Source: a virus. Taken from it: a DNA stretch of 25,456 nucleotides. Positions 4,050 through 21,332 of this stretch are shown here, one piece after another (positions within the stretch are counted from its first letter, which is position 1; each line of letters starts with the position of its first letter). The position numbers and the translations under genes were made by a program. The stretch lies in the IMG/VR virus record IMGVR_UViG_3300017917_003561, positions 1 through 25,456 of that record; one strand, given 5' to 3'. The notes below the pieces were generated by a model, which was not told where the DNA came from, made no database searches, and saw only the letters and a list, made by a program, of their open reading frames with translations.

Positions 4050-4580
4050 ATGATACGCATCATTAAATTTGTAGTATTTGCACTAGCCGTTGTGTTAGTT
4101 GCGTTAGGTGGTTATAAAGCAGTAACATATAAATTAGAGACCCTAAAGACTGCTAGAATCGCCGTAAGCCCAGTTACAGCAGAAATGAGACAGAAACAAT
4201 TAGACTGTCTTGCTCGTAACATTTATCATGAAGCAGGCTATGAGCCATTTGAAGGCAAAGTAGCGGTTGCACAAGTTACAATCAATCGTGCAGAAAGTGG
4301 ACAATTCCCAAGTGACATCTGCAAGGTTGTTTATCAAAAGAACGTTATATACGAAAAAGTTCTTTGCCAGTTTAGCTGGTATTGCGAAAGTGCTAGTTTG
4401 AAAAAACCTATGAACGGTCCGGTATATATTGAAAGTATGGAAGTGGCAAAGAAAGTTCTATTAGAAGGATTTAGACTTCCTTCAGTAAAAGATGCACTAT
4501 ACTTTCATGGGGATTATATCAACCCTGGTTGGAAAAGAGAACGAGTAGCAAAAATTGGTCGACATATCTTTTATAAGTGA
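4050..4580 (+). CDS. SleB-type cell-wall hydrolase (Hydrolase_2), membrane-anchored endolysin candidate
   Basis: 176 residues. Residues about 4-24 form one hydrophobic segment (IIKFVVFALAVVLVALGGY), then a Hydrolase_2 domain from about 50 to the end: LARNIYHEAGYEPFEGKVAVAQV with the catalytic-type Glu, NRAESGQFPSDICKVVYQ, CQFSWYC, then LYFHGDY, NPGW and IGRHIFY. This family cleaves peptidoglycan (SleB of spores, and many phage endolysins). Having a single N-terminal anchor and no obvious signal-peptidase site, it could be a signal-anchor-release endolysin. The ribosome binding site is AAAGGAG. It overlaps or abuts the next membrane-protein gene, a natural lysis pair. Confidence 0.85.
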   Translation: MIRIIKFVVFALAVVLVALGGYKAVTYKLETLKTARIAVSPVTAEMRQKQLDCLARNIYHEAGYEPFEGKVAVAQVTINRAESGQFPSDICKVVYQKNVIYEKVLCQFSWYCESASLKKPMNGPVYIESMEVAKKVLLEGFRLPSVKDALYFHGDYINPGWKRERVAKIGRHIFYK

Positions 4581-5622: not shown

Positions 5623-6810
5623 ATGATTCTAGCCTGGTTACTACTTCTAACTGGCTTAATAATATCTGCGGTAGCGATCTATTACTCAGTAGTAGGTCTT
5701 ACCGCAATATTTTCTGCCGCCGCCATTCCAATTATTATCATGGGCTCGGCCTTGGAGGTTGGCAAGTTAGTCTGTGCCAGTTGGTTAAAGGCCAATTGGG
5801 AACGTGCTCCACGTTTCATGAAGTACTACATGATTACCGCAGTAATGGTTCTCATGTTAATAACCAGCATGGGTATCTTTGGCTTTTTAAGTAAAGCACA
5901 CAACGACCAAAACTTAGTAAGTGGCGATGTTCAAAGCAAGATTGCTATCTACGATGAAAAAATTAAAGTAGCAAAGGAAAACATCGATGCAAATCGCAAA
6001 GCACTCAAACAAATGGATGAGGCTGTGGACCAAGTTATGGGTCGAAGTCAAGACGAAAAAGGTGCGGACAAGGCAGTTGCGCTACGTAGAGCACAGGCCA
6101 AAGAACGCACTAGATTACTTTCTGAGATTACCGCCGAACAGAAAATTATTAGCCAACTTAGTGAAGAACGGGCACCCATCGCCGCTGAAGTACGTAAGGT
6201 GGAAGCAGAAGTTGGTCCGATAAAATATATTGCTAAATTTGTCTACGGCGATCGAGGCGCAGATGAAAACATGCTGGAACGTGCAGTAACTTGGATCATT
6301 ATCCTTATTGTTATTGTGTTCGATCCACTGGCAGTTATCATGTTACTGGCCGCTCAAATGACCTTTGGGTGGTATAGAAACAGTCAGCCTAAAGAAGAAC
6401 AGTATCCTACAATAGCAGACTTGGATCGCGATGTAGGCGAACCACCAACAGAAGAAGAAAAAAGGCAACTAGAAGAGGCAAATGATAGGCAACAGGATGT
6501 TCAACCCGTCAGCTCAAAATGGCCATTCCCATCAGCGAGTAAACCAGAACAAGTTCCAAGCGAAACACCGTCGACTGCACTAGGAGGTGATATAACAGCG
6601 CCGGAGGAAAAGCCAACAGAAGTGGTAGAAGAGATACCACTCGAACAATGGAACAAAATGATTGCGGAAGCTGAACGTGCAGTTGAAGAAGAAAAGAAGG
6701 CAGCTTTGGAAATTGATCTACCTCATGTAGAAGAAACAGAAGAGTCAAAAAAAAAGACATACATGACCAAGGACGAACAGGGACAGATACAGATCAAGAA
6801 CCGGTCATAA
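5623..6810 (+). CDS. Membrane and coiled-coil protein, conserved in T4-like marine phages; zero-frame product
   Basis: 395 residues in the zero frame. Two or three hydrophobic spans at 1-50 (LAWLLLLTGLIISAVAIYY and the Ile/Ala-rich SAAAIPIIIMG) and one near 65-88, then a long charged coiled coil (about 95-200), a further span pair near 224-248 (TWIIILIVIVFDPLAVIMLL), and a Pro/Glu-rich cytoplasmic tail (about 260-395). Function unknown; topology suggests an inner-membrane protein with a coiled-coil domain facing periplasm or cytoplasm. It begins 8 bases after the virion-like gene and may share its late promoter. A canonical slippery heptamer near codon 378 would let ribosomes pass into the -1 frame and extend the protein by 111 residues (see 6750-6808). 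Confidence 0.75.
   Translation: MILAWLLLLTGLIISAVAIYYSVVGLTAIFSAAAIPIIIMGSALEVGKLVCASWLKANWERAPRFMKYYMITAVMVLMLITSMGIFGFLSKAHNDQNLVSGDVQSKIAIYDEKIKVAKENIDANRKALKQMDEAVDQVMGRSQDEKGADKAVALRRAQAKERTRLLSEITAEQKIISQLSEERAPIAAEVRKVEAEVGPIKYIAKFVYGDRGADENMLERAVTWIIILIVIVFDPLAVIMLLAAQMTFGWYRNSQPKEEQYPTIADLDRDVGEPPTEEEKRQLEEANDRQQDVQPVSSKWPFPSASKPEQVPSETPSTALGGDITAPEEKPTEVVEEIPLEQWNKMIAEAERAVEEEKKAALEIDLPHVEETEESKKKTYMTKDEQGQIQIKNRS
6750..6808 (+). promoter_or_regulatory. Probable -1 programmed ribosomal frameshift signal
   Basis: The zero frame reads TCA AAA AAA AAG, so the heptamer A-AAA-AAG (6750-6756), the same one E. coli dnaX uses, is in phase. Six bases later ATGACC (6763-6768) can pair with GGTCAT (6803-6808), a plausible stimulatory stem with a 34-base loop. 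The -1 frame is open from 6717 (stop TGA at 6714-6716) to 7091, overlapping the zero frame by about 94 bases. The A9 run could also be an assembly indel joining one continuous gene. Confidence 0.6.
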
Positions 6811-6875
6811 AAGGCTACGTTCAAAATGCTGAACAGTCAGAAGGCACTATATGGGCAAAGATTAATCAAGCAAAT

Positions 6876-7091
6876 ATGAAGCCTAAAGACGAAATGTACA
6901 GGCTATACGACTTTGACAAATTTAATGATTTAATTATAGACAAGTTTACTGACCCAGCGTTATATCAGTTTGTTGAAGAAACAAAAACCCGTGGCCCTAA
7001 ATTTGCCAATTATAGCCAAGAACGGCTGAAAGAATTCGTAAATAGAATATATGAACTTAGGAAAAATAACCCTAATTACACCTCCAGATAA
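6876..7091 (+). CDS. -1 frame C-terminal extension of the membrane protein (or separate 71-aa protein)
   Basis: From the ATG at 6876 this is a 71-residue charged helical protein (KPKDEMYRLYDFDKFNDLI to [12 protein letters not shown]). The frame is open well upstream, and the upstream residues (EPVIKGYVQNAEQSEG, then IWAKINQANM) look like real protein. No ribosome binding site precedes the ATG. The best reading is therefore that it is translated as the tail of a 489-residue fusion made by frameshifting at 6750-6756: 378 residues from the zero frame plus 111. No catalytic motif is seen; function unknown. Its last 41 bases overlap the next gene in another frame. Confidence 0.6.
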   Translation: MKPKDEMYRLYDFDKFNDLIIDKFTDPALYQFVEETKTRGPKFANYSQERLKEFVNRIYELRKNNPNYTSR

Positions 7092-7461
7092 GTTGTTCAA
7101 TTTGAATTTAAGTTATCTGCTAGTTAAACCATCCAATTCTGTTAAACAACAGTTTCAAACTATTCTAAGTAAAAGCATCGATGATCTTAATGTTTTTATT
7201 TTCGACGAAAAAGAAACAGACATTGCTTGGATGCTTAGTGTTGCACAGCAAGTTGATGTCGTGGTAATTGATGTAGATAACTGCGACCCAACGACTAAAA
7301 GTTTTATCACATTTCTGTTGGCGCAACCCAATGCACACTATATAACATTAGATGAAACTACTCCTTACAATCTAATAAGCAAAAATAGAATTTGGGATTT
7401 AGAAGGAATAGTTGAACAATTCACACAAGAGGAAGATGAAGATGATGAACCACAAGACTAA
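7051..7461 (+). CDS. Conserved T4-like phage protein of unknown function
   Basis: 136 residues. The pattern is alpha/beta: [35 protein letters not shown], then [35 protein letters not shown] and [13 protein letters not shown], ending in an acidic tail ([13 protein letters not shown]). The buried strands [11 protein letters not shown] and AHYITLDE suggest a Rossmann-like or receiver-like domain, but no nucleotide-binding loop is visible. I recognise the family from marine T4-like phages without a known function. It overlaps the preceding frame by 41 bases and the bS21 gene by about 20, so it is part of one tight transcript. Confidence 0.7.
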
Positions 7462-7727: not shown

Positions 7728-8315
7728 ATGGCTAATACAGACGTAATGATTGACTTAGAAACATTGGCGACATCAACCGATGCCGCCATTCTTACGATTG
7801 GAGCAGTAAAGTTTGATCCATTTGGTAGAGATGTTGCAGAACCCGCAATGGACAGTTTTTATGTTAGAGTAGATTTGGACAGTTGTCATGAGATTGGTTT
7901 AGTTACCAACGACGATACCATAGCATGGTGGGCTCAACAGGATAAGGCAGTTCAAGACGAAGCATTTAGTGAAGGTGCAGACAGACTGCATATTCGAGAT
8001 GCAATGGAAAGATTGTACAAATTCTGTTGGGGTGCAAAACGTGTATGGAGCAACGGCGCAGCCTTTGACGTGCCAATTTGCGAAACTGCCTTCAAGCGTG
8101 TAGGCAAAGCCATTCCTTGGAGCTTCTGGCAAGTTCGCGATGTGCGTACAGCATTTGATTTAGGAATCAATCCTAATCGTCCGCCTGTTACCAAGCATCA
8201 TGCACTAGAGGATGCGTGGAATCAGGCAGTAGGTATTCAGAACGTTTACAATACCCTACGTAGTTGTTCAACATACGATGGTAAATTTGTAACCCCATTT
8301 AGTAACGAAAGATAA
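7728..8315 (+). CDS. DEDDh 3'-5' exonuclease, phage type (Rv2179c-like)
   Basis: 195 residues with the ordered DEDDh residues: D9 and E11 in MIDLETLATS, the middle Asp in VWSNGAAFDVPICETAF, and the final His/Asp in HHALEDAWNQA. The segment DTIAWWAQQDKAVQDEAF matches the phage and mycobacterial Rv2179c-like subfamily of RNase T-fold enzymes, which trim RNA or single-stranded DNA 3' ends with two metal ions. Such genes are common in T-even-like and other large phages, where a role in RNA turnover or DNA repair is assumed. It has its own host-type promoter and sits two bases ahead of the HD-domain gene, so the pair is probably early and co-transcribed. The substrate cannot be told from sequence. 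Confidence 0.85.
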   Translation: MANTDVMIDLETLATSTDAAILTIGAVKFDPFGRDVAEPAMDSFYVRVDLDSCHEIGLVTNDDTIAWWAQQDKAVQDEAFSEGADRLHIRDAMERLYKFCWGAKRVWSNGAAFDVPICETAFKRVGKAIPWSFWQVRDVRTAFDLGINPNRPPVTKHHALEDAWNQAVGIQNVYNTLRSCSTYDGKFVTPFSNER

Positions 8316-8927: not shown

Positions 8928-8959
8928 TTAAATTCTTGCTTAAAATTAAGGAGATAAAA

Positions 8960-10855
8960 ATGAGCAAAATCATAGGTATTGACCTTGGCACCACTAATAG
9001 TTGCGTTGCCATTCTAGAAAACGGCGTAGCCAAAGTTATTGAAAACAGCGAAGGCGCCCGCACTACACCATCAATCGTTGCGTACACACCAGATGAAATC
9101 TTAGTTGGTGCTACAGCAAAACGACAAGCAGTTACAAACCCAAAGAATACAATTTATGCCGCCAAGCGTTTAATTGGCCGTAAGTTCTCTGAGAAAGAAG
9201 TTCAGAAGGACATCGACCTAATGCCTTACTCAATTGTACAGGCTAAGAACGGAGATGCTTGGATTAAGGCACAAGACAAGGAACTGGCACCTCCACAGAT
9301 CAGTGCAGAAGTTCTGCGTAAAATGAAAAAGACCGCGGAGGATTATCTAGGTGAAAGTGTTACAAAGGCTGTTATCACAGTTCCAGCATATTTTAACGAC
9401 AGCCAACGACAAGCTACAAAAGACGCTGGCCAAATCGCAGGCTTGGAAGTACTGCGTATTATTAACGAGCCTACTGCTGCAGCTCTTGCGTATGGCGTTG
9501 ATAAGTCTGATAAAAAAGATAGGAAAGTGGCTGTTTATGACCTTGGTGGTGGTACATTCGACATCAGCATCATTGAAATCGCGGATATCGAAGGCGATAA
9601 ACAAATCGAAGTTTTAAGCACAAACGGCGATACATTCCTCGGTGGTGAAGACTTTGATCAACGCATCATGGATCATCTCTGCGATGAATTTAAGAAAGAG
9701 AATGGTATCGACCTTAAGTCGGACATGTTGGCCCTACAACGTCTAAAAGATGCTGCGGAAAAAGCCAAGATTGAACTATCTAGTTCGCAGAGCACAGACA
9801 TTAACCTGCCATACATTACAGCAGACGCTACTGGTCCTAAGCACATGAACGTTAAACTAACTCGTGCTAAGTTTGAAGCAATGGTTGAAGACTTGATTCA
9901 ACGTTCAATTGAGCCATGCAAAGTAGCAATGAAAGATGCAAACGTTACAGCCAACGACATTACAGAAGTTATCTTGGTCGGTGGCCAGACACGTATGCCT
10001 AAAGTTCAAGAAGCAGTTGAGAAATTGTTTGGTAAAACTCCGCGTAAAGATGTTAATCCAGACGAAGCAGTTGCCGCAGGCGCTGCTATTCAAGGTGCTG
10101 TTTTAGCTGGTGACAAGACAGACGTTCTGTTACTTGACGTTACTCCTCTAAGTCTTGGTATTGAAACAATGGGCGGTATCTTTACTAAACTAATTGAAAA
10201 GAATACAACTATCCCAACCAAAAAGTCACAGACTTTCTCAACGGCAGAAGACAATCAACCTGCTGTTGATATTAAAGTAGCACAAGGTGAACGCGAGTTG
10301 TTCAAGTACAACAAGATGCTTGGAGAATTCAAACTAGATGGCATCAATCCTGCACCACGCGGTATGCCGCAGATTGAAGTTACCTTTGATATTGATGCTA
10401 ACGGTATCATGAACATCAGCGCCAAAGACAAAGGTACTGGTAAAGAAAACAAAATTACAATTAAATCAGATAGCGGTCTAAGCAAAGACGATATCGAGCG
10501 TATGATCAAAGAAGCAGAAGCAAATGCCGAAGCCGATAAGAAAGCTCGTGAGTTAATCGATGCTAAGAATCAATCTGAAAGTGCTGTACATAGCATCAAA
10601 AAAGACTTTGAAGAATTTAAAGATCAGCTTACTGAAGAAGAGCGTAGTAAATTTGAAGAGTCTTTAAAAGGTGTTGAACAAGCACAAAGCGGCGAAGATG
10701 TTGAAGCTATCAACAAAGCCGTTCAAACAATGTTTGAGTCAGCTGGTCCTGTGTTTGCCAAAAAACAAGCCAAGGCCAGTGCTGAAACAGCCCAACCAAC
10801 CGAGGGCGAACAAACCGTTAATGCGGAGTTCAAAGAGGTTGATAAGAAAGACTAA
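8960..10855 (+). CDS. dnaK: Hsp70 chaperone DnaK, full length
   Basis: 631 residues, close to E. coli DnaK (638). The nucleotide-binding domain has [16 protein letters not shown] at the start, [28 protein letters not shown] and [10 protein letters not shown]; the linker is [18 protein letters not shown]; the substrate domain and helical lid follow; the C-terminus ends EFKEVDKKD, similar to the EEV tail of bacterial DnaK. The start is the ATG at 8960, placed by AAGGAG (8948-8953); a TTG at 8936 would add eight residues in the leader. No dnaJ or grpE is seen, so host co-chaperones are assumed. Besides helping fold virion proteins it could serve the viral IscU, which keeps the LPPVK Hsp70 site. 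A late promoter and a hairpin leader precede it. Confidence 0.97.
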
Positions 10856-10867
10856 TGGTCTTATAAT
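10839..10867 (+). promoter_or_regulatory. Sigma70-like promoter (hsp20)
   Basis: TTGATA (10839-10844), 17 bases, TATAAT (10862-10867): five of six and six of six matches. The -35 is inside the last codons of dnaK. This gives hsp20 an expression route independent of the late promoter of dnaK. Confidence 0.75.
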
Positions 10868-10872
10868 AAAAA

Positions 10873-10900
10873 TGTAGGGTGCCGATGGTCGGGCCCTACA
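10873..10900 (+). promoter_or_regulatory. hsp20 leader hairpin
   Basis: TGTAGGG (10873-10879) pairs with CCCTACA (10894-10900), and CCGA (10882-10885) with TCGG (10889-10892) around a TGG loop, leaving a small internal loop. It is flanked by the same AAAAATGTAG and CTTGCTTAA blocks as the dnaK leader. There is no U-tract, so it is probably a leader element rather than a dnaK terminator. Confidence 0.6.
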
Positions 10901-10928
10901 CAATCTTGCTTAATTAAGGAGATATAAA

Positions 10929-11354
10929 ATGACACAATTAAGAACTATTGATACTAATGCTTTAGCTCAGCTTAACAGAGCCCTTGTAGGTTTTGATCGT
11001 ATTTTCAATGATCGTTTCTTTGAAACACGAACAAACAACTACCCTCCATATAACATTGTAAAATACAGTGATAATAATTATGGAATTGAAGTTGCAGTTG
11101 CAGGTTTCGACAAATCAGAAATCACAGTCGAAGTTGATCAAGATCAACTGACAATTAAAGGTGAAAAAGTTAAGTCTGATTCTGAAGTAGAATATCTGCA
11201 CAGAGGGTTGGCTGCACGTGACTTTGAACAAACATTTACTCTAGCTGAGTACATGGAAGTCCGTGGTGCAGAAGTCAAGGACGGTATGCTAAAAATTGAC
11301 ATTGAGCGTATTGTTCCAGAAGCACTGAAGCCGCGCCAAATTGAGGTTAAATAA
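10929..11354 (+). CDS. Small heat shock protein, Hsp20/IbpA family
   Basis: 141 residues. N-terminal QLNRALVGFDRIFNDRFFE and PPYNIVKYSDNNYGIEVAVA are typical of IbpA-like proteins; the alpha-crystallin domain continues with GFDKSEITVEVDQDQLTIKG and ends with GMLKIDIERIVPEALKPRQI, including the IxI-like tail. Small Hsps hold unfolding proteins for DnaK, which is encoded just upstream. Hsp20 is a near-universal gene of T4-like marine phages. Ribosome binding site AAGGAGATA; own sigma70-like promoter; a terminator-like hairpin follows. Confidence 0.95.
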   Translation: MTQLRTIDTNALAQLNRALVGFDRIFNDRFFETRTNNYPPYNIVKYSDNNYGIEVAVAGFDKSEITVEVDQDQLTIKGEKVKSDSEVEYLHRGLAARDFEQTFTLAEYMEVRGAEVKDGMLKIDIERIVPEALKPRQIEVK

Positions 11355-11367
11355 TTTGTAAAACACA

Positions 11368-11390
11368 GGGGGAGGCAACTCCCCCATTTT
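11368..11390 (+). terminator. Rho-independent terminator-like hairpin after hsp20
   Basis: GGGGGAG (11368-11374), GCAA tetraloop, CTCCCCC (11379-11385): a perfect 7-bp GC-rich stem closed by a GNRA loop, followed by ATTTT. The U-tract is short, so termination may be partial. It separates the chaperone genes from clpS. Confidence 0.65.
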
Positions 11391-11404
11391 AGAAAGAGAA
11401 TAGA

Positions 11405-11707
11405 ATGCCTGGTACAGATATCCAACTAGACGAGAAAATCAAAGTAAAAGTTGCCGAACCAAAAAACTGGAAGGTAATTTTACTCAACGACGATTCAACT
11501 CCTATGGAGTTTGTAATTTCTATTTTGGTAGAAATCTTTAAACATACCTCAGACACTGCCAGAGATATAATGTTTCAAGTTCACGAAACTGGTAGCGGTA
11601 TTGCAGGCGTTTATAGTTTTGAAATTGCCGAAGCCAAAGCTGTAGAAGCAACACACCAAGCACGTTCAAACGGCTTCCCCTTACAAATTAAGTTGGAGGA
11701 AGAATGA
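11405..11707 (+). CDS. clpS: ClpS, N-end-rule adaptor for ClpAP
   Basis: 100 residues of the ClpS family. The N-degron pocket motif NDDSTPMEFVISIL, the following helix EIFKHTSDTARDIMFQVHETG with the conserved His, and GVYSFEIAEAKAVEATHQA with the C-terminal FPLQIKLEEE are all present. ClpS hands proteins with bulky hydrophobic N-termini to ClpA and blocks other substrates, so a viral copy could redirect host proteolysis. The start codon follows AGAAAGAG. Its stop overlaps the heme oxygenase start (ATGA), which makes clpS, heme oxygenase and bilin reductase one coupled unit. Confidence 0.93.
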   Translation: MPGTDIQLDEKIKVKVAEPKNWKVILLNDDSTPMEFVISILVEIFKHTSDTARDIMFQVHETGSGIAGVYSFEIAEAKAVEATHQARSNGFPLQIKLEEE

Positions 11708-12258
11708 GCTTAAAAGAAGCAACACACGAACAGCATCGTCGAGCAGAAACAAGACCATTTGTAAAAATACTGTTTTCTGGAAAAATAGATCCAAAACTCT
11801 ACGCAACATATCTCAAGAATCAGCACCCAATGTATGAAGTGCTAGAAGCCTGCGCTATGCCACACCAGCTGTTGCATGGTATCCCAGATATTCGTAGAGC
11901 TCCTGCAATTTTAGAAGATTTTATCGAATTGTGGGGAAGAGATAATACTGAGCAACCCAAAATTTGTCCAGTAGTTAACGAGTACATAAGATATATCCTA
12001 AGTATTAAAGAAGATCCACATAAACTAATGGCACACATATATGTTCGTCATATGGGAGATTTGAGTGGCGGACAAATGATTAGCCAGCGTGTTCCAGGTA
12101 GTGTAAAATTCTATAAATTTAACGGCGACACAGAAGAAATTAAAAATGCTATTCGCACAAAGCTAGATGATAGTATGGCAGACGAAGCCAAAGTTTGTTT
12201 TGATTTTGCCACAAAATTATTTGAACAAATGATGGATGTTGCCAAAGACTATGAGTGA
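11704..12258 (+). CDS. Heme oxygenase (biliverdin-forming)
   Basis: 184 residues, somewhat shorter than cyanobacterial HO1 (about 240). The proximal heme ligand is H11 in LKEATHEQHRRAE; the distal helix has YVRHMGDLSGGQMI with the flexible GG pair; FYKFNGDTEEIKNAIRTKLD is the usual C-terminal helix region. The enzyme opens heme to biliverdin IXalpha, Fe2+ and CO, taking electrons from ferredoxin. The gene overlaps clpS by four bases (ATGA) and the bilin reductase by eight. Heme oxygenase plus bilin reductase cassettes are known from cyanophages (ho1-pebS) and from other oceanic phage contigs. Released iron could also feed NrdB and IscU/IscA, which is speculation. Confidence 0.93.
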   Translation: MSLKEATHEQHRRAETRPFVKILFSGKIDPKLYATYLKNQHPMYEVLEACAMPHQLLHGIPDIRRAPAILEDFIELWGRDNTEQPKICPVVNEYIRYILSIKEDPHKLMAHIYVRHMGDLSGGQMISQRVPGSVKFYKFNGDTEEIKNAIRTKLDDSMADEAKVCFDFATKLFEQMMDVAKDYE

Positions 12259-12937
12259 AAGCAAAGTTTGGGATACACTAATTGATATTCAACATTTACT
12301 CGAAGATTCGTTCAATCGCACAGGCACAGAAATACAAGAGCCTGGAATGGATCGTTTTAATCAGCCTGGTTGGGTCAATCGCGTCTGGACCAGTAGCTCT
12401 TATCGTCGCGCTCATATTGATGTCGTAGACGCTAGAGAAACTAAAGGTTTGTGGATGATGCATTGTTGCATTTTCCCACATACGCACAATCCTGCTCCTA
12501 TTTACGGGTTCGACGTTGTAGCTGGTCGTAATAAAATGACTGGCTGTTTTCATGATTACAGCGCCGCAGGTGATACACTTCATCCTATGATTGAATGGTT
12601 TGGTGAGTATGTAGAACGTCTAGAATGGCGTAAACCACGCGAACTACCTGACTGGGCCAAGCGCATTTTTAGCCCGCATATGGTAGCTGCTGGCAACGTC
12701 AAAGACGAAACAGAGCTGGATCAAATTACACAAATGGCTAGAGATACTCTATCTCATTATCTAGCTACAGTAGCAGAAACAAATAACACAGTTTTAGATA
12801 CTACTACACATCAGAACTATTACTGCGATAATCAGAAACAAAACCCGCATACACCCCGTGTAATGGCCAGCTTAGGGCTAGACGAAGAGGACGTTCGGGT
12901 TTTCATTCAGGAATGTCTATTCCCAGAAATCGCATAA
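12251..12937 (+). CDS. Ferredoxin-dependent bilin reductase (PcyA/PcyX-like)
   Basis: 228 residues from the ATG at 12251; an in-frame ATG at 12236 would lie deeper in the heme oxygenase gene and lacks support. Family marks: MMHCCIFPHTHNPAPIYGFD followed by VVAG, then HDYSAAG, and the C-terminal YYCDNQKQNPHTPRVM and LFPE. Aligned by eye to PcyA, the catalytic His88 is H71 and Asp105 is D88, but Glu76 is replaced by Asp (D57 in YRRAHIDVV). That pattern departs from PcyA and could favour phycoerythrobilin, as in the phage-derived PcyX group; the product cannot be settled from sequence. It uses biliverdin from the overlapping heme oxygenase. Its stop codon lies within a late promoter. Confidence 0.88.
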   Translation: MSESKVWDTLIDIQHLLEDSFNRTGTEIQEPGMDRFNQPGWVNRVWTSSSYRRAHIDVVDARETKGLWMMHCCIFPHTHNPAPIYGFDVVAGRNKMTGCFHDYSAAGDTLHPMIEWFGEYVERLEWRKPRELPDWAKRIFSPHMVAAGNVKDETELDQITQMARDTLSHYLATVAETNNTVLDTTTHQNYYCDNQKQNPHTPRVMASLGLDEEDVRVFIQECLFPEIA

Positions 12938-14543: not shown

Positions 14544-14993
14544 ATGAAGTTCAAACTTTACGTACTAGGTACGGTATTGTTGTCAGTGTACTCGACAGTA
14601 CAAGCAGAATTAGTACACCAATTTCAAAGTCCAGCCTTTATTCCAGGTAATGGGTTTAGTCAGCACGTTCTTTCTATCTATCAACTAGAAGAAAACAAAA
14701 AGAAAGAAATCAAAGCAGACGAAGCAGCAGCAATAGCCAAAGCAGAAGCAGCTGCTAAACAAACAAACCTAAGCAAATTCCTAGTTAACGTAGAAGCACG
14801 TATCTATGCTCAGTTGTCTAAGCAACTGGCAGACCAAATGTTTGCCGAAGGTACTGGTAATAGCGGTACTATGAACTTCCAAGGAACAAATATTAGTTGG
14901 GTAAAAACAGGTACAGACGTTACCCTTACTATCATAGAAGCAAATGGTAGTAGAACTGAAATTGTTGTACCTATTGCGAGCTTTGCATTCTAA
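14544..14993 (+). CDS. csgF: CsgF-like curli assembly factor
   Basis: 149 residues with a signal peptide (cleavage after VQA, about residue 21). The mature start ELVHQFQSPAFIPGNGFSQH corresponds to the conserved CsgF N-terminus (TFQFRNPNFGGNPNNG), the part that plugs the CsgG pore; an Ala/Lys/Glu-rich helix follows (about 50-75), then LSKFLVNVEARIYAQLSKQL and TDVTLTIIEANGSRTEIVVP, matching the CsgF C-terminal half. CsgF caps the CsgG channel and places the nucleator at the cell surface. The stop codon overlaps the csgG start (TAATG). Pelagimyophages are reported to carry curli-related genes, which fits. Confidence 0.85.
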   Translation: MKFKLYVLGTVLLSVYSTVQAELVHQFQSPAFIPGNGFSQHVLSIYQLEENKKKEIKADEAAAIAKAEAAAKQTNLSKFLVNVEARIYAQLSKQLADQMFAEGTGNSGTMNFQGTNISWVKTGTDVTLTIIEANGSRTEIVVPIASFAF

Positions 14994-16171
14994 TGAAACG
15001 AGCACTCTTAAGCCTTTTGATTGTAACAGCACTATCAGGTTGTGCCAGCATCCATATGGAAGCGGCTAAAGAAGAACCTGTGGCTTTACAACCTAAAGAA
15101 AACTTAGTAAGTAAATTGCCAGAATTAGACGGCCCAGCAATAACTATAGCGGTTTACGGATTCCAAGATAAAACAGGGCAAATGAAGCCCAATGATAGAT
15201 TAGCTGTGTTCTCAAAAGCAGTAACACAGGGTGCTGAAGTATTCCTAATTAAATCACTTCAGGACTCAAAGAATTGGTTTAAGGTGGTTGAACGTGTCGG
15301 ACTAGATAACCTGATTAAAGAAAGACAATTGATTCGCAACCAACGGGAAGTTTATGAAGGTAAAGATGCTAGACCCCTTAAGCCAATGACTGTAGCAGGA
15401 GTCATGATTGAAGGTGGTATCATTGGTTTTGACTCCAACATTCGCTCTGGTGGTAACGGAGCGAGATTCTTAGGTATTGGCGGAAGCCAACAGTATCGCG
15501 TTGATGAGATTGTAATTAGTCTGAGATTAGTCAGTGTAAACAGCGGTGAAGTCTTGCTTACTAATGCTGTGAGTAAAACAATCTACAGTACACAACACAA
15601 CGTAGGAGTACTACGTTTTGTTGATGCAGGAACTAAAGCATTAGAATTAGAAAATGGTTCGGCACTAAACGAGCCAACTACCTATGCTGTTCGTGTGGCT
15701 ATTGAGCAGGCAGTGTATGATATGATAGTTGAGGGTGAAAAGAAAGGTTTATGGAGATATAAAAAACCTAAACCAGTAGTAGAGACTGCGCCTGCAGCAG
15801 TCCAGGAAAAAAAGGAGGTTAAGAACGATGAGTTGGTACAACCGCAAACCGCACCGTCATCCCAAAGAGCCCCAGAGCCCGCACCTGCCCCACAGGACGA
15901 GCCCAGCATCAGAAAGAATAATGACGGAAACAAAGGAGAGGACGTCTCCAAAGCAAATGAAGAAAAAATAGTATCTGGGTCAATAATGTATTTGAAAGAT
16001 CATTATTACGTAAGAAAAATAGACAGCGATAAGAGTACAAAAGTTTGGTTTTTTGATAAAGGGACAGAAGTAGTAGTAACGGCCCACAATCAAGAATGGA
16101 GTACCGTTAAGAGTAAAGACGGCAAAGGTGGGTTCGTAAGGAATGAAATGCTTACAGCGAGCAAACCTTAA
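14993..16171 (+). CDS. csgG: CsgG-like curli secretion lipoprotein with C-terminal SH3-like domain
   Basis: 392 residues against about 277 for E. coli CsgG. A lipobox LSGC (C17) marks an outer-membrane lipoprotein; residues about 45-260 are the CsgG domain (ITIAVYGFQDKTGQMKPNDR, WFKVVERVGLDNLIKERQLI, VEGEKKGLWRYKKP), the nonameric pore that exports curlin. Then comes a Pro/Ala/Glu linker (about 262-330) and a domain SIMYLKDHYYVRKIDSDKST to SKDGKGGFVRNEMLTA, which looks like a bacterial SH3 (peptidoglycan-binding) domain. In the linker the codons GAA AAA AAG make a dnaX-type slippery heptamer; slipping would end the protein at 276 residues, the size of ordinary CsgG. A small ORF is nested in the linker in another frame. 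It is coupled to csgF by TAATG. Confidence 0.88.
   Translation: MKRALLSLLIVTALSGCASIHMEAAKEEPVALQPKENLVSKLPELDGPAITIAVYGFQDKTGQMKPNDRLAVFSKAVTQGAEVFLIKSLQDSKNWFKVVERVGLDNLIKERQLIRNQREVYEGKDARPLKPMTVAGVMIEGGIIGFDSNIRSGGNGARFLGIGGSQQYRVDEIVISLRLVSVNSGEVLLTNAVSKTIYSTQHNVGVLRFVDAGTKALELENGSALNEPTTYAVRVAIEQAVYDMIVEGEKKGLWRYKKPKPVVETAPAAVQEKKEVKNDELVQPQTAPSSQRAPEPAPAPQDEPSIRKNNDGNKGEDVSKANEEKIVSGSIMYLKDHYYVRKIDSDKSTKVWFFDKGTEVVVTAHNQEWSTVKSKDGKGGFVRNEMLTASKP
15808..15814 (+). promoter_or_regulatory. Candidate -1 frameshift heptamer in csgG
   Basis: A-AAA-AAG in phase (codons GAA AAA AAG GAG). In the -1 frame the next codons are GGA, GGT, then stop TAA (15820-15822), giving a 276-residue CsgG without linker and SH3 domain. 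The overlapping AAAGGAGGT is also a strong ribosome binding site for the nested ORF, so the A-rich tract may simply belong to that. Confidence 0.35.
15828..15971 (+). CDS. Possible 47-aa basic protein nested within csgG
   Basis: An ATG lies 8-9 bases after AAAGGAGGT, the best Shine-Dalgarno in the whole window, in a frame different from csgG. It encodes a Pro/His/Arg/Lys-rich protein starting MSWYNRKPHRHPKEP, continuing HLPHRTSPASERIMTETKER and ending PKQMKKK. The composition is unlike a random shadow of a Pro/Ala linker and looks like small basic phage proteins. Only coding overlap with the csgG linker argues against it. Function unknown. Confidence 0.45.
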   Translation: MSWYNRKPHRHPKEPQSPHLPHRTSPASERIMTETKERTSPKQMKKK

Positions 16172-16185
16172 GGAGTAGAGTAAGC

Positions 16186-16260
16186 ATGGAGGAGCGCAAT
16201 AAAAACAATAACATGGACGCATTAACAAACTTTAACTTGCGTCCGGAGCGAATAAAATGA
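16186..16260 (+). CDS. Possible 24-aa leader peptide before the curlin gene
   Basis: ATG at 16186 after AAGGAG (16170-16175), encoding MEERNKNNNMDALTNFNLRP then ERIK, with its stop overlapping the curlin start (ATGA). It runs through the GGACGCA/TGCGTCC inverted repeat, so its translation could open the hairpin and couple to the curlin gene. Too short to be sure that it is translated. Confidence 0.25.
   Translation: MEERNKNNNMDALTNFNLRPERIK
16215..16248 (+). promoter_or_regulatory. Inverted repeat abutting the curlin ribosome binding site
   Basis: GGACGCA (16215-16221) and TGCGTCC (16238-16244) are a perfect 7-bp pair around a 16-base loop; the ribosome binding site GGAGCGAA starts at the very next base (16245). 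Confidence 0.5.
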
Positions 16261-16928
16261 CTAAAAGAAAGACAGGCCATGGCGGGGTGCCGAGAAAATT
16301 ACTCGCAATTCTAGTAGCGGCTGCAATGCCACTATCGGGAGCGTTTGCCAATGATGTTTACGTAGATCAAATTGGTGATAATTCATCAGTTTCTATCACG
16401 CAAACAGGTGCTGGTAACTTAGTCAACGGTAATGTTGGCGGCAACGGTAACGCAGACGATGCGGCATTGATTAAAGGTGATCTTAATAATGTTACCATCA
16501 GCCAAATTGGTGCAAGTAACACCGTTAGCTTAATTATCAACAATGAGTCAAACGGAACTGGTTCAACTGTTGTTATATCAGCAGACGGTAGCAACAACAA
16601 TCAAACTATTGGTTGTGGTACTGCATTAAGCTCTAGTTGTAATGCCAGTGTAATTAGGTCTGAAATAACAGGTAATAACAATAATACAGTACAAACTTTA
16701 AGTGGTGGAGTTGTAAAAAGTACCATTGCAATTAATGGCAACTATAACAACGTAACCCATAGTGCATCAGGAGTAGGACAACATTCGGGTGAAATAACAG
16801 TTTCTGGTAGCGGCTCAAGCACTATTGCTAATGCTGTAACTTTGACACAGAGCGGAGTATTTGCTAAAAATGCAGTCATTACTAGCAACGGTTCTAATAA
16901 CAACGTTACTGTTACTCAGTCCGATTAA
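16257..16928 (+). CDS. Curlin-repeat amyloid-like protein (CsgA/CsgB-like)
   Basis: 223 residues. A basic N-terminus and signal peptide end at AFA (about residue 31). The mature protein carries degenerate curlin repeats of about 20-25 residues: VDQIGDNSSVSITQTGAGN, VTISQIGASNTVSLI, VVISADGSNNNQTI, then Asn-rich copies (EITGNNNNTVQTL, AINGNYNNVTHSA) and a last NAVITSNGSNNNVTVTQSD. The Q-x-G-x-x-N core is clear in the first two and blurred later. One Cys pair (IGCG, SSSC) is unusual for curlin. It should be the cargo of the CsgG/CsgF pore just upstream. Whether it is fibre subunit or nucleator cannot be told. The last 59 bases also encode the start of the FecR-domain protein. Confidence 0.8.
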   Translation: MTKRKTGHGGVPRKLLAILVAAAMPLSGAFANDVYVDQIGDNSSVSITQTGAGNLVNGNVGGNGNADDAALIKGDLNNVTISQIGASNTVSLIINNESNGTGSTVVISADGSNNNQTIGCGTALSSSCNASVIRSEITGNNNNTVQTLSGGVVKSTIAINGNYNNVTHSASGVGQHSGEITVSGSGSSTIANAVTLTQSGVFAKNAVITSNGSNNNVTVTQSD

Positions 16929-17970
16929 TAGCATTGCCGGCGTCGGCAAAGTTACTGAACAGACTGGTCCTACAGAAATTATTCGAGATAAAAAATCAAT
17001 CTCGGCGAGCTTAAACACAGGGGTAGAAATGAACGACACAGTTAGTACAGCTCGCGCTAAGGCTGAACTAACTTTTGAAGACAAGACCACAGTTAAACTT
17101 ACAGAGCATAGTAAGATGGTCATTGATGACTTTGTTTATGATCCAAAAAAAGGCTCAGGCAAGTTAGCACTAAACATGGCACTAGGTACTGCACGATATG
17201 CCAGCGGACAGATTGCTAAAAACAATCCGCAACAGGTAGCAATAAAAACACCCACAGCCAGTATCGCTGTTCGAGGCACAGACTTTTCAATGACTGTAGA
17301 CGAACTAGGAAGAAGTTTAGTTATGCTTCTTCCTAGTTGCGATGCTAAAGGGTGTGTTACTGGAGCGATTGAAGTTAGAAACTTGGCAGGAGTAGTGTTG
17401 CTTGATGTTCCATATCAAGCAACACTAGTCAATAGCGCCTATACATCGCCCACCGACCCTGTAGTAATTAAAATTGATCAAGCTAATATCAACAACATGT
17501 TAATCATCAGCAAACCAAAAGAAGTAGCAGATGCTGAAAGTGCAGGCACAGTTAAGAAAGAAAAAGGATTATTAGATTTTAATGAACTAGATGTTGACCT
17601 TTTAAAGTATTCAAAGTTAGACGAAAACGCATTGGATAAAAAATCGTCTTTAGATCGAAACGATTTAGATGCAGACTTACTAGCTTTTAATTCTTTAAAT
17701 GAATTAGACAGACAAAATGCATCTTTACTATCTAACGAATTAGATAATCCAATATTACCTGGATATTCATCAAATAAATCATTAGGATTATTATATTATT
17801 TTAATGATGATCAGACTAAAGTAACATTGTACAAAGCAGGCAGTCATAATGCCACAGTGACATTTGATACCACTAAGAATGCCACTCTTACGCTTAACCA
17901 GAGTGGCCAACAAATTATACAAAACGTGAATAAAGGTTCAACAAGCGTTGTTTCTATTACACAAAATTAA
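16870..17970 (+). CDS. Exported FecR-domain protein with curlin-like C-terminus
   Basis: 366 residues from the ATG at 16870 (a TTG at 16861 is an alternative). Residues 1-24 are a signal peptide, MQSLLATVLITTLLLLSPIN then SIAG, encoded inside the 3' end of the curlin gene in another frame. A FecR domain follows (about 25-160): VGKVTEQTGPTEIIRDKKSI, AELTFEDKTTVKLTEHSKM, TPTASIAVRGTDFSMTVDE. In bacteria exported FecR-domain proteins are often found beside CHASE2 cyclases and surface proteins. The middle (about 230-285) is a Leu/Asp/Asn-rich repeat (ELDVDLL, KLDENALDKK, RNDLDADLL). The last 30 residues (ATLTLNQSGQQIIQNVNKG, SVVSITQN) resemble curlin repeats, hinting at co-assembly with the curlin protein. 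No anti-sigma helix is seen, so FecR-type sigma regulation is unlikely. Confidence 0.82.
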   Translation: MQSLLATVLITTLLLLSPINSIAGVGKVTEQTGPTEIIRDKKSISASLNTGVEMNDTVSTARAKAELTFEDKTTVKLTEHSKMVIDDFVYDPKKGSGKLALNMALGTARYASGQIAKNNPQQVAIKTPTASIAVRGTDFSMTVDELGRSLVMLLPSCDAKGCVTGAIEVRNLAGVVLLDVPYQATLVNSAYTSPTDPVVIKIDQANINNMLIISKPKEVADAESAGTVKKEKGLLDFNELDVDLLKYSKLDENALDKKSSLDRNDLDADLLAFNSLNELDRQNASLLSNELDNPILPGYSSNKSLGLLYYFNDDQTKVTLYKAGSHNATVTFDTTKNATLTLNQSGQQIIQNVNKGSTSVVSITQN

Positions 17971-18035: not shown

Positions 18036-21000
18036 ATGAAACTTAACAAACTAGCCATGGCCATGGCTTTAGCAATGTCTGCCCTAACAGCGAAAGCAGA
18101 TATATCCGACGGCCAATTCAGTACAAATCAGATTTTTGACGTACAATACTATTGGAGCGGAACGACACTAAACGCTTCAAATTTTATTGCACCGTATGAC
18201 ATGAACTTCCAGCATCCAACAGTTGGTGCTGGACAGTATTTTAAATTTTTCCCAAGCACAACTAATCCAGGAACATATGGACTAGGATTGTATAACAGTG
18301 ATGGAACACGAGCACAGATAGTACACAATACCGGTACACTACAGGCTATTGGACCAGATGCATTGTTTTACATTGGTTCTGGTTTCTTTGGAACTGTAAT
18401 TACTACATCTGCAGGATACAGTTACGGACAAAGTGCAAGTTTTGCCAGTATGGACACCAGTGTATCGACATCAGATATGACCAGCTATACTTGGGCAAGT
18501 ACTACTCCTTTGAGCGCAGGACAAACTGCAAGCTCAACACCTAGTACTCCAGCACCAAGCGGACCTAACTATGTTGCAGTTACACAACCAACAGTTACCT
18601 CAGTAACACCAACAAGTACAAATAGCCCCCCAGGCGAAACTGCTGAGAATGCTATTGATGGTAATCCATCGACTAAGTATCTAAATTTTGACCGTGCCAA
18701 CGCAGGCTTCACAATTAAACTACAGTCAGCACAAGTGTTACAAGGTATTAAGTTTACCACAGCTAACGACTTTCCAGATAGAGACCCAAGCAAGTACAGC
18801 CTATATGGATCTAACGACGGTGTAAACTGGACAACTATTGTTAATGCAGCAAGTATTACATTGAGTAATAGTCGTTACACACAATCTAGTATGTACACGA
18901 TTACTAACACTAATCCATACTTTTACTACTTTATTACATTCCCAGACATTAAAGCCAGCGCCAGTTATGCTGATATTAATGCCTGCGGATTAGCTTGCGA
19001 CAGCGTACAGATTGGTGATGTAGAATTTATCTACGATACAAACTTTGCATTTACAGCGCCAACAGATACTGGTACAGGTACTATTGCTAACCCAGGAACA
19101 GCGGGTAGTGTATCAGATATGGCAGTTCCAGTAGTTGGGCCGCAAGCCGTTACAGTAGCAAGTGGCTCAACAGGTACTAATGCTAGTGGATCAACAACAT
19201 TGTCAGTTACTAATGCTGGAACATACACCAACGATGGTACAAATGGAGATGTTACAAATAGCGGAACATTTACTAACAATGGAACAACTGGCGCAGTAAC
19301 TAATACAGGTACGTTCAATAATAATGGAACAACTGGTAACGTATCTAATAGTGGCACATTTAACAATGACGGCACAACTGGTACAGTTACTAACCACGGT
19401 ACATTTAACAACGGTGTTACAGGAACAACTGGTGCTGTTTCAAACCATGGAACATTTAACAACAGTGGTTCTGTTACAACATTTGAAAACGCAGGTACGC
19501 TAACCAATAACTCCAGCGGAACAATTGGTACGTTAGCATACAATAACCACATTGTTAATAACAATGGCACTATTAACACAATTACGTATAACGGTGGCAC
19601 AGTAAACAATCACGGTACAATTGGTAGCATCAACAACAGTGAAGCACACGGTACATTCCATAACGACGGAACAGTAACTGGTAACGTAACAACAAACAGT
19701 ACATTCAACAATAATGCTACTGGTATTGTTCAAGGGACATACGCTAACACTGGTACATTAAACAACGCTGGTACAGTTGGTGCTGTTTCTAACGATGGTA
19801 CATTTAACAACTCAGGCACAGCAGGCGCAGTCACACTTGTAAGCGGATCATTTACTAATACAGGTTCAGCCGCAAGTGTTGACAATACAGCAGGTTTGAC
19901 ATTCACTAACGGTGGTACAATTACTGGAGCATTAACTAATGCTGGTACAGTAACTAACAACGGTAACGTTGGTAGTGTTAACAATACTGGTTGGTTCACT
20001 AATGCTGTAAATGCTATTGTAGGGTTCGTTGCAAATAGTTTAAACTTTACAAATAACGGTACTGCTGGCGATGTTACAAACACAGGTACTATGACTAATA
20101 GTGGAACAGCTGGTGTTATTACAAACAGCGGAACACTAACACAAACTGGTGGAACTGCATCTGTTAATAACACAGGCACATTTACAATGACTGGCGGCAC
20201 ACTAGGATCATATACACAAACTGCTCCAGGCATTACTGTAATGAGCGTCAATCAACCAATATTAGTAACTGGTGCGGCTTCTTTGGGCGGCGGCATATCA
20301 ATCAACGACGTGCCAACAGGCTATGGTAGATATACTGTATTAACAGCAGGTAGTGTAAATGGTACATATGATTCAATCAACAGCACCAGCAACTACCTAC
20401 GTTATAGTCTAACTGATGTTAAACTTTATGTCACTCCAGATGCATCGGCTACTCAGTCAAGTATTAATGCTACAAGCAGCAACTTAGCCAACGCATTCAA
20501 CCTACAGTCAAATGTTGTAACAACAGCACTAGGCAGCGACTGTGCTGTGTTTGGTGCAACAGGTGCATGTGTAGGAGTTAACTTAGGAATGAATAAAGCC
20601 AGTAGCGGTGATTTGTTCAACGGTGGTGTAACTGTTGCTAAGAAAATTAACGATAACTGGAGAGTAGGCGTTGTAACTAATGCACCGTTCAACAATCCAA
20701 CTATTGGCAACGTAAGTCAATCAAGTGATCCTGCTTATGGTTTATTTGCAACATGGACTAAAGAACGTTTAAGTGTTCAAGGTAGTGCGGCATTTAATCA
20801 AGGCACAATGACCATTACAAGAAACGGACCAGAAACAGGTGTTGGTAAAATGGCAGTAGACAACAAGGCTTATCAATTGAAGGCAAGCTATGTTGTTCCT
20901 GTAAACGAAACAGTATCTGTTACTCCTTACATTGGTGTTCGTTATGTAGAGTCTAACTATGGTGGATATACTGAGCAAGGACCAGTGTTCCCACTAACAG

Positions 21001-21332
21001 TAAACAGTACTACTCGTAATGCTACAAGTGCAATCGCAGGCGTAAGCGTAGCAAAGCAACTAACAGAAAAACTTAGTGGCAATGTTGCAGTCGGTGTCAC
21101 ACAAAACTTAACTGGACAGTCAGCAACGTTTAAAGGAACAAGCGAAATTGGCGGACTTGCTACTTTCACAAATAATATCCCAAGTAACGGATCTGTTAAC
21201 CCAAGCGTAAGTGCTGGTGTATCGTACAGCATCGACAAAACAACTAAAGTTGGTGCAAACGTTGGTTGGCAAGCTAAAGGGTCTAACGCAAACATTGGCT
21301 CAATTGGTATTAGTCTAACTAAAGGTTTCTAA
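18036..21332 (+). CDS. Autotransporter adhesin (type Va-like) with discoidin-like domain and Asn/Gly/Thr repeats
   Basis: 1098 residues. Signal peptide to about residue 22 (MSALTAKA). Residues about 23-175 are a Ser/Thr/Tyr-rich beta domain. About 180-330 resemble an F5/8 type C (discoidin) carbohydrate-binding domain: GETAENAIDGNPSTKYLNFD, YSLYGSNDGVNWTTIV. About 390-730 are degenerate 10-12-residue repeats (GTFNNNGTTGAVTN) expected to form a beta-helix stalk. From about 850 to the end is a beta-barrel: alternating strands (GGVTVAKKINDNWRVGVVTN, AYQLKASYVVPVNETVSVTP) ending in GSIGISLTKGF with the terminal Phe required for BAM insertion. It would be displayed on the outer membrane of the infected cell. 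No passenger protease motif is seen. A strong terminator follows. I know of no well-described phage gene like it. Confidence 0.85.
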   Translation: MKLNKLAMAMALAMSALTAKADISDGQFSTNQIFDVQYYWSGTTLNASNFIAPYDMNFQHPTVGAGQYFKFFPSTTNPGTYGLGLYNSDGTRAQIVHNTGTLQAIGPDALFYIGSGFFGTVITTSAGYSYGQSASFASMDTSVSTSDMTSYTWASTTPLSAGQTASSTPSTPAPSGPNYVAVTQPTVTSVTPTSTNSPPGETAENAIDGNPSTKYLNFDRANAGFTIKLQSAQVLQGIKFTTANDFPDRDPSKYSLYGSNDGVNWTTIVNAASITLSNSRYTQSSMYTITNTNPYFYYFITFPDIKASASYADINACGLACDSVQIGDVEFIYDTNFAFTAPTDTGTGTIANPGTAGSVSDMAVPVVGPQAVTVASGSTGTNASGSTTLSVTNAGTYTNDGTNGDVTNSGTFTNNGTTGAVTNTGTFNNNGTTGNVSNSGTFNNDGTTGTVTNHGTFNNGVTGTTGAVSNHGTFNNSGSVTTFENAGTLTNNSSGTIGTLAYNNHIVNNNGTINTITYNGGTVNNHGTIGSINNSEAHGTFHNDGTVTGNVTTNSTFNNNATGIVQGTYANTGTLNNAGTVGAVSNDGTFNNSGTAGAVTLVSGSFTNTGSAASVDNTAGLTFTNGGTITGALTNAGTVTNNGNVGSVNNTGWFTNAVNAIVGFVANSLNFTNNGTAGDVTNTGTMTNSGTAGVITNSGTLTQTGGTASVNNTGTFTMTGGTLGSYTQTAPGITVMSVNQPILVTGAASLGGGISINDVPTGYGRYTVLTAGSVNGTYDSINSTSNYLRYSLTDVKLYVTPDASATQSSINATSSNLANAFNLQSNVVTTALGSDCAVFGATGACVGVNLGMNKASSGDLFNGGVTVAKKINDNWRVGVVTNAPFNNPTIGNVSQSSDPAYGLFATWTKERLSVQGSAAFNQGTMTITRNGPETGVGKMAVDNKAYQLKASYVVPVNETVSVTPYIGVRYVESNYGGYTEQGPVFPLTVNSTTRNATSAIAGVSVAKQLTEKLSGNVAVGVTQNLTGQSATFKGTSEIGGLATFTNNIPSNGSVNPSVSAGVSYSIDKTTKVGANVGWQAKGSNANIGSIGISLTKGF
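19203..20220 (+). repeat. Coding region of degenerate tandem repeats
   Basis: About 1 kb in which words such as GGAACATTTAACAAC and GGTACAGTTACTAAC recur roughly every 30-36 bases, encoding GTFNN-GT-G-VTN units. Copies are well diverged at DNA level, so the array is old or under selection rather than freshly amplified. It lies wholly in the autotransporter stalk. Confidence 0.8.

Follow-up and report, generated by a model that had tools for sequence, protein, structure and literature searches.

The analysed DNA, here called the window, is a 25,456-bp virus contig from IMG/VR, and the features of the locus described below all lie on its plus strand. The locus is built around a gene at 5623–6810, which runs in the 0-frame from the ATG at 5623 to the TAA at 6808–6810 and encodes a membrane protein of 395 aa. 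This short product has transmembrane helices at its N-terminus, a long coiled-coil and a tail that is acidic and of low confidence; it ends ...SKKKTYMTKDEQGQIQIKNRS, with TYMTKDEQGQIQIK as its C-terminus. Close to the stop codon the gene contains the site TCA AAA AAA AAG (A9G, 6745–6756), in which nine A's at 6747–6755 are followed by G at 6756, and no other A/T run of the window reaches a length of 8. The heptamer A_AAA_AAG, to which an earlier note on this DNA had drawn attention, indeed occupies 6750–6756 in phase with the ATG at 5623. The −1 frame was found open from 6717, as claimed there, and runs to the TAA at 7089–7091. Its part past the run, the −1 extension (6756–7091), has 111 codons, is helical and carries the core motif YVQNxEQ...W.RI. 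Joined to 378 residues of the gene it gives a fused product of 489 aa, and the lengths of 395 and 489 residues proposed earlier were both recovered from the ORFs. Positions 6757–6810 are coded in both frames, as TYMTKDEQGQIQIKNRS and a stop in the 0-frame and as DIHDQGRTGTDTDQEPV in the −1 frame. The first ATG of the −1 frame, at 6876, is preceded by CAAAGATTAATCAAGCAAAT and is located 3' of the YVQN motif, and the window sequence has no Shine-Dalgarno sequence 5' of it; the earlier note had likewise seen no ribosome binding site at this ATG and coding-looking residues before it. The next gene (7051–7461) has its start codon within the end of the −1 ORF and is a candidate for translational coupling. 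The neighbours of the locus include an endolysin-like hydrolase (a wall hydrolase, 4050–4580) and an exonuclease (7728–8315), and no tape measure gene was recognised near it.

Relatives of the N-terminal part of the protein (residues 15–248) occur in Pelagibacter phage Mosig (Kyanoviridae), Xanthomonas phage XacN1, Salicola phage SCTP-2 and others; the slippage site is absent from the Mosig, XacN1, SCTP-2 and RAS14 homologues. Similarity of the window protein to Tetraspanin reached 25 bits, below the cut-off of 32.1. It was not matched by DUF4407 (Pfam PF14362) at E up to 0.01, and the same family scored 18.5 bits, below the curated cut-off of 31.3, with L050, a relative in which the two reading frames are naturally fused. 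Searches with the protein in PHROG, NCBIfam and PDB sequences gave no match worth using, Rfam showed no family in the window, the −1 tail alone matched nothing among annotated phages, and no host or homologue was found in a search of bacterial genomes. The extension was helical in the AlphaFold2 model of L050, with pLDDT of 80–97. Modelled on its own it had a pLDDT of 63.5, and a fold search of PDB with this latter model returned nothing.

Several other genes of the window were recorded. A curli-type cluster at 14544–17970 consists of CsgF (14544–14993), CsgG (14993–16171), a curlin-repeat protein (16257–16928) and a FecR-domain protein (16861–17970). Pelagimyophages are reported to carry CsgF and CsgG without CsgA/CsgB (PMC7029224); unlike in those phages, a curlin-repeat protein is also present in the window. 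At 11704–12937 a heme-oxygenase-like gene adjoins a ferredoxin-dependent oxidoreductase of the bilin reductase kind (phrog_7278), and the two are probably a phage bilin-synthesis pair. A chaperone and proteolysis set, DnaK-like, Hsp20-like and ClpS-like as judged from ORF translations, stands in a row at 8936–11707. The CHASE2-adenylate cyclase-like gene at 21388–23430 matches phrog_35576, which has no assigned function, over almost its full length (E 5e-185). A 1,098-aa repeat-rich autotransporter-like protein at 18036–21332 had no PHROG match, and at 2172–2426 a small PAAR-motif protein (phrog_281) adjoins a structural-looking ORF of 240 aa.

Conservation of the Site and of Both Reading Frames

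To collect relatives, viral contigs were searched at the protein level with these queries: the window protein, the −1 extension, two default-short relatives and one fused relative. The loci obtained were clustered at 90% nucleotide identity, and 75 distinct ones keep the site. Loci fetched via the site pattern itself were excluded from codon statistics to avoid circularity. In all 75 loci (less than 90% identical) the run and both frames are retained and the 0-frame stop is similarly placed, 48–60 nt from where the last lysine codon begins and in most cases 51 or 54 nt. A homopolymer of at least about eight A/T at the frame transition, typical of transcriptional slippage, was present (as A8–A11) in 75/75, and a conserved in-phase slippery heptamer of the X_XXY_YYZ type, typical of dnaX-type frameshifting, in 73/75 default-short relatives. 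The earlier note was right that a comparison of homologues would be decisive. The codons AAA AAA AAG were kept in the same 73, while lysine codon usage in these genes (1895 AAA, 794 AAG) would give about 15% per locus. The serine codon before the lysines is TCA in 67 of 71 cases, compared with a background of 26% of serine codons, and where serine is replaced, CTA or CCA still supplies the A. Seventy relatives have a run of A9, four have A8 and one has A11. In the 443,636 bases of the 75 related loci the site accounts for all 70 A9 runs, and outside it no A/T run reaches a length of 9. By these counts the A9 site of the window is far beyond chance, and its ninth A, although dispensable for the heptamer, is evidently conserved. 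One relative, L348, reads ACC AAA AAA AAA GAG: A9 is retained, the lysine codons are in another phase and A_AAA_AAG is lost.

Selection was visible in both frames. Within the overlap, substitutions sorted by codon position of the short frame numbered 377/324/793, and amino-acid entropy was 1.44 bits in the short frame vs 1.90 bits in the −1 frame. The third-position bias, together with the lower entropy, indicates that the protein with the short C-terminus is genuinely made and does not arise by an accident of early termination. Past the short stop, substitutions followed the −1 frame (65/38/176 by codon position, 9 pairs). In 36 aligned rows of the extension, 11 columns are invariant, six of which belong to YVQNxEQ...W (Y21, Q23, N24, E26, Q27 and W33). 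Substitution patterns thus indicate that protein-level selection acts on the short C-terminus and on the −1 extension alike. The third frame is shut 8–11 nt past the run in 73/73. Among 71 complete −1 ORFs, 59 are without ATG, GTG or TTG ahead of the conserved motif, and in 23 such codons are missing from the whole ORF. An extension that lacks its own start in relatives needs a frame shift, and the same absence makes an indel, a sequencing error or a separate gene unlikely. The proposal that a membrane protein of a T4-related phage is extended by slippage on an A-run is in this way supported by at least 75 lineages, and the gene is predicted with confidence to make two products, one short and one long.

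The −1 ORF reaches over the next gene's start codon by 1–50 nt in 69 of 70 default-short relatives, and this holds for tails of about 22 and about 90 codons alike. The short stop of these relatives precedes that start codon by 37–255 nt. Such an overlap would partly explain why the IYELRKN end of the extension is conserved.

Sequences Around the Slippage Site

The earlier note had pointed to a 6-bp stem as part of a dnaX-type frameshift signal. Its arms are present in the window (ATGACC at 6763–6768 and GGTCAT at 6803–6808, on the plus strand) and enclose a 34-nt loop; as a conserved feature the stem did not hold, since all six pairs form in only 1/50 relatives. RNAalifold gave no consensus structure in several windows spanning −50 to +140 of the site (energy 0 kcal), and folding of single sequences around the site gave a mean z of −0.16. 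A conserved downstream stimulatory structure was therefore rejected. Upstream of the site, anti-Shine-Dalgarno energy averaged −1.30 vs −0.84 in the control, and TAGAAGAAACAGAAGA of the window gave −0.2. Binding at −5 kcal or lower was seen in 11% vs 5% of the control, so that pairing was near background and no Shine-Dalgarno-like upstream stimulator was found in relatives. Of the proposed dnaX-type frameshift, the slippage site was thereby borne out as conserved, while a ribosomal mechanism stimulated by the stem gained little from the relatives.

Long-Default Lineages

Six lineages read directly into the long frame, four by a run of A10 (L050, L254, L301 and L338) and two by T-A9 (L266 and L095). 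Placed on a tree of the N-terminal domain, these lineages represent six separate changes, forced by well-supported branches, with bootstrap values not fully settled. Deleting one A in each of these lineages restores a short-type peptide ending 46–58 nt later, and these short peptides match relatives better than synonymous recodings of the long peptide do, of which only 0–6 in 1000 attain the observed score. That the short frame is open in these lineages was not counted as evidence, since the long peptide by itself goes most of the way towards forcing this; similarity of the short peptide took its place. A −1 ribosomal shift in them leads to a stop within 8 nt. The retention of the run and of the short-frame text favours polymerase slippage; this text may also be inherited from recent default-short ancestors.

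Discussion

We infer that the extension is probably expressed by RNA polymerase slippage that adds one A, which we prefer over −1 ribosomal frameshifting, though not by a wide measure of certainty. Most transcripts would carry nine A's and give the 395-aa membrane protein. On the A9 template the polymerase would sometimes slip and add one A, and ribosomes on such an mRNA would go on in the other frame and make the 489-aa protein with its C-terminal helical extension. In the long frame these ribosomes would run as far as the next gene's start codon, and translation of that gene may be coupled. The ribosome may contribute through −1 slippage of its own at this A_AAA_AAG. Polymerase as the main slipping machine is favoured because the ninth A is conserved, the heptamer of L348 is out of phase, A9 is absent elsewhere and no stimulator is conserved. 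An A9 run in a reporter gave 40% frameshift product, and A9 is the transcriptional slippage site of Thermus dnaX (PMC3711429). Against polymerase slippage stand the four relatives with A8 only, and a lower slippage of E. coli RNA polymerase on A than on T runs (PMC6260861). The ninth A, moreover, also yields a second in-phase heptamer, A_AAA_AAA.

That the ribosome itself slips, tRNA-Lys re-pairing one base back on unaltered A9 mRNA by programmed −1 frameshifting at A_AAA_AAG without conserved stimulators, is a real though lesser possibility. The exact phase of the heptamer in 73/75 default-short relatives, with its final G nearly invariant, speaks for the ribosome and against the polymerase, and the heptamer is still present in the A8 relatives. 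A_AAA_AAG ranks among the best, highly shift-prone heptamers in E. coli (PMC5009743; PMC4066793), and −1 shifts for tail proteins are described as common across phages (PMC5009743). However, no stem, pseudoknot signal or Shine-Dalgarno sequence is conserved, and shift-prone heptamers that lack stimulators shift in E. coli at only about 2–10 times a background of 0.055% (PMC4066793). The ribosome offers no obvious reason for a conserved ninth A, nor for the run and short-frame text that persist in the six long-default lineages despite the stop within 8 nt. Replication slippage between A9 and A10, which would produce phage populations of mixed short and long type, finds some footing in the coexistence of A9 and A10 genomes (3 A10 contigs vs 110 A9 stretches that share the flanking pattern). 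Run length, however, differed in 0/268 near-identical, non-identical locus pairs, which makes phase variation in the genome unlikely, and A10 is rare and sits at isolated tree tips; we consider this explanation very improbable. Hardly more can be said for the −1 ORF as a separate downstream gene with a start of its own, for example the ATG at 6876. This codon does exist in the window, and BFVD entry A0A6J5KW49, a 65-aa uncharacterised phage protein, is 47% identical to part of the fused model. That resemblance suggests that part of the extension may be annotated alone and that databases may split the product. The ATG nevertheless has no Shine-Dalgarno sequence, the motif is upstream of it, and most relatives offer no start ahead of the motif. 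To a sequencing error or decay, with a true run of A8 or A10 in a continuous gene, or with a pseudogene, we give practically no credence. Homopolymers are error-prone and some relatives, the four with A10, are continuous, yet many independent assemblies, covering 70 distinct relatives, show A9, which refutes an error unless all assemblies share it, and selection on both reading frames stands against a pseudogene.

Among known systems, dnaX of Thermus thermophilus resembles the present gene in its coding-frame A9 and two C-terminal variants (PMC3711429). RNA polymerase slips there, as proposed here; unlike here, where a phage membrane protein receives a 111-codon extension, the slip leads to the shorter gamma subunit. 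The E. coli dnaX gene shares the in-phase A_AAA_AAG heptamer. It differs in that its −1 product is shorter, whereas ours is longer, and in that its upstream Shine-Dalgarno-like sequence and downstream hairpin (PMC3711429) have no conserved equivalent here. Citrobacter rodentium tssM1 and Yersinia pseudotuberculosis tssM3 use poly-A slippage to make a short and an extended membrane protein (PMC4256274). The A's are added there by transcriptional slippage, both forms are required and their ratio matters, and the short stop of C. rodentium tssM1 is 28 nt past the run (PMC4256274). Unlike the phage site, the tssM1 and tssM3 runs are 11 long and belong to bacterial genes of type VI secretion; the sequences showed no relation. 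Phage lambda G/GT, the tail assembly chaperone, is similar as a tailed-phage gene with one start and a short and an extended product, whereas the gene studied here encodes a membrane protein and is not upstream of a tape measure gene in the window. No earlier description of recoding in this phage gene family was found in the literature searched, and we know of no prior example of conserved polymerase slippage in a tailed-phage gene. The phage recoding examples given in the available part of PMC5009743 are ribosomal.

Shigella spa13, according to PMC5009743, has a C-terminal extension of about 110 residues overlapping the start of the next gene, and its transcriptional slippage also affects that gene; translational coupling is reported there for spa13 and spa32. 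In contrast to the phage gene, spa13 is a type III secretion gene on a plasmid and encodes an unrelated protein. By this analogy, coupling of the next gene to the long product may reasonably be supposed for the phage locus. The two lengths of the membrane protein might, speculatively, be needed in a set ratio as with tssM.

An uncultivated group of T4-related phages may well carry, in a membrane protein gene, a long-lived cassette for transcriptional slippage, in which A9 or A10 would set only the default, both products would always be kept and ribosomes would enter the next gene, although we stop short of calling this probable. If true, a run that outlasts deep divergence with at least six flips of the default would be an unusual, phage-wide use of RNA polymerase slippage. 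L348 is a useful natural test of polymerase vs ribosome slippage, and the natural A8, A9 and A10 variants could separate the two in a simple reporter. The recoding signal is conserved across many uncultivated phages, and the long product of its gene would be missed by ordinary gene calling. With two C-termini and a −1 ORF that overlaps the next gene, the locus provides a testable case in which one slip may set both the form of a protein and downstream expression.
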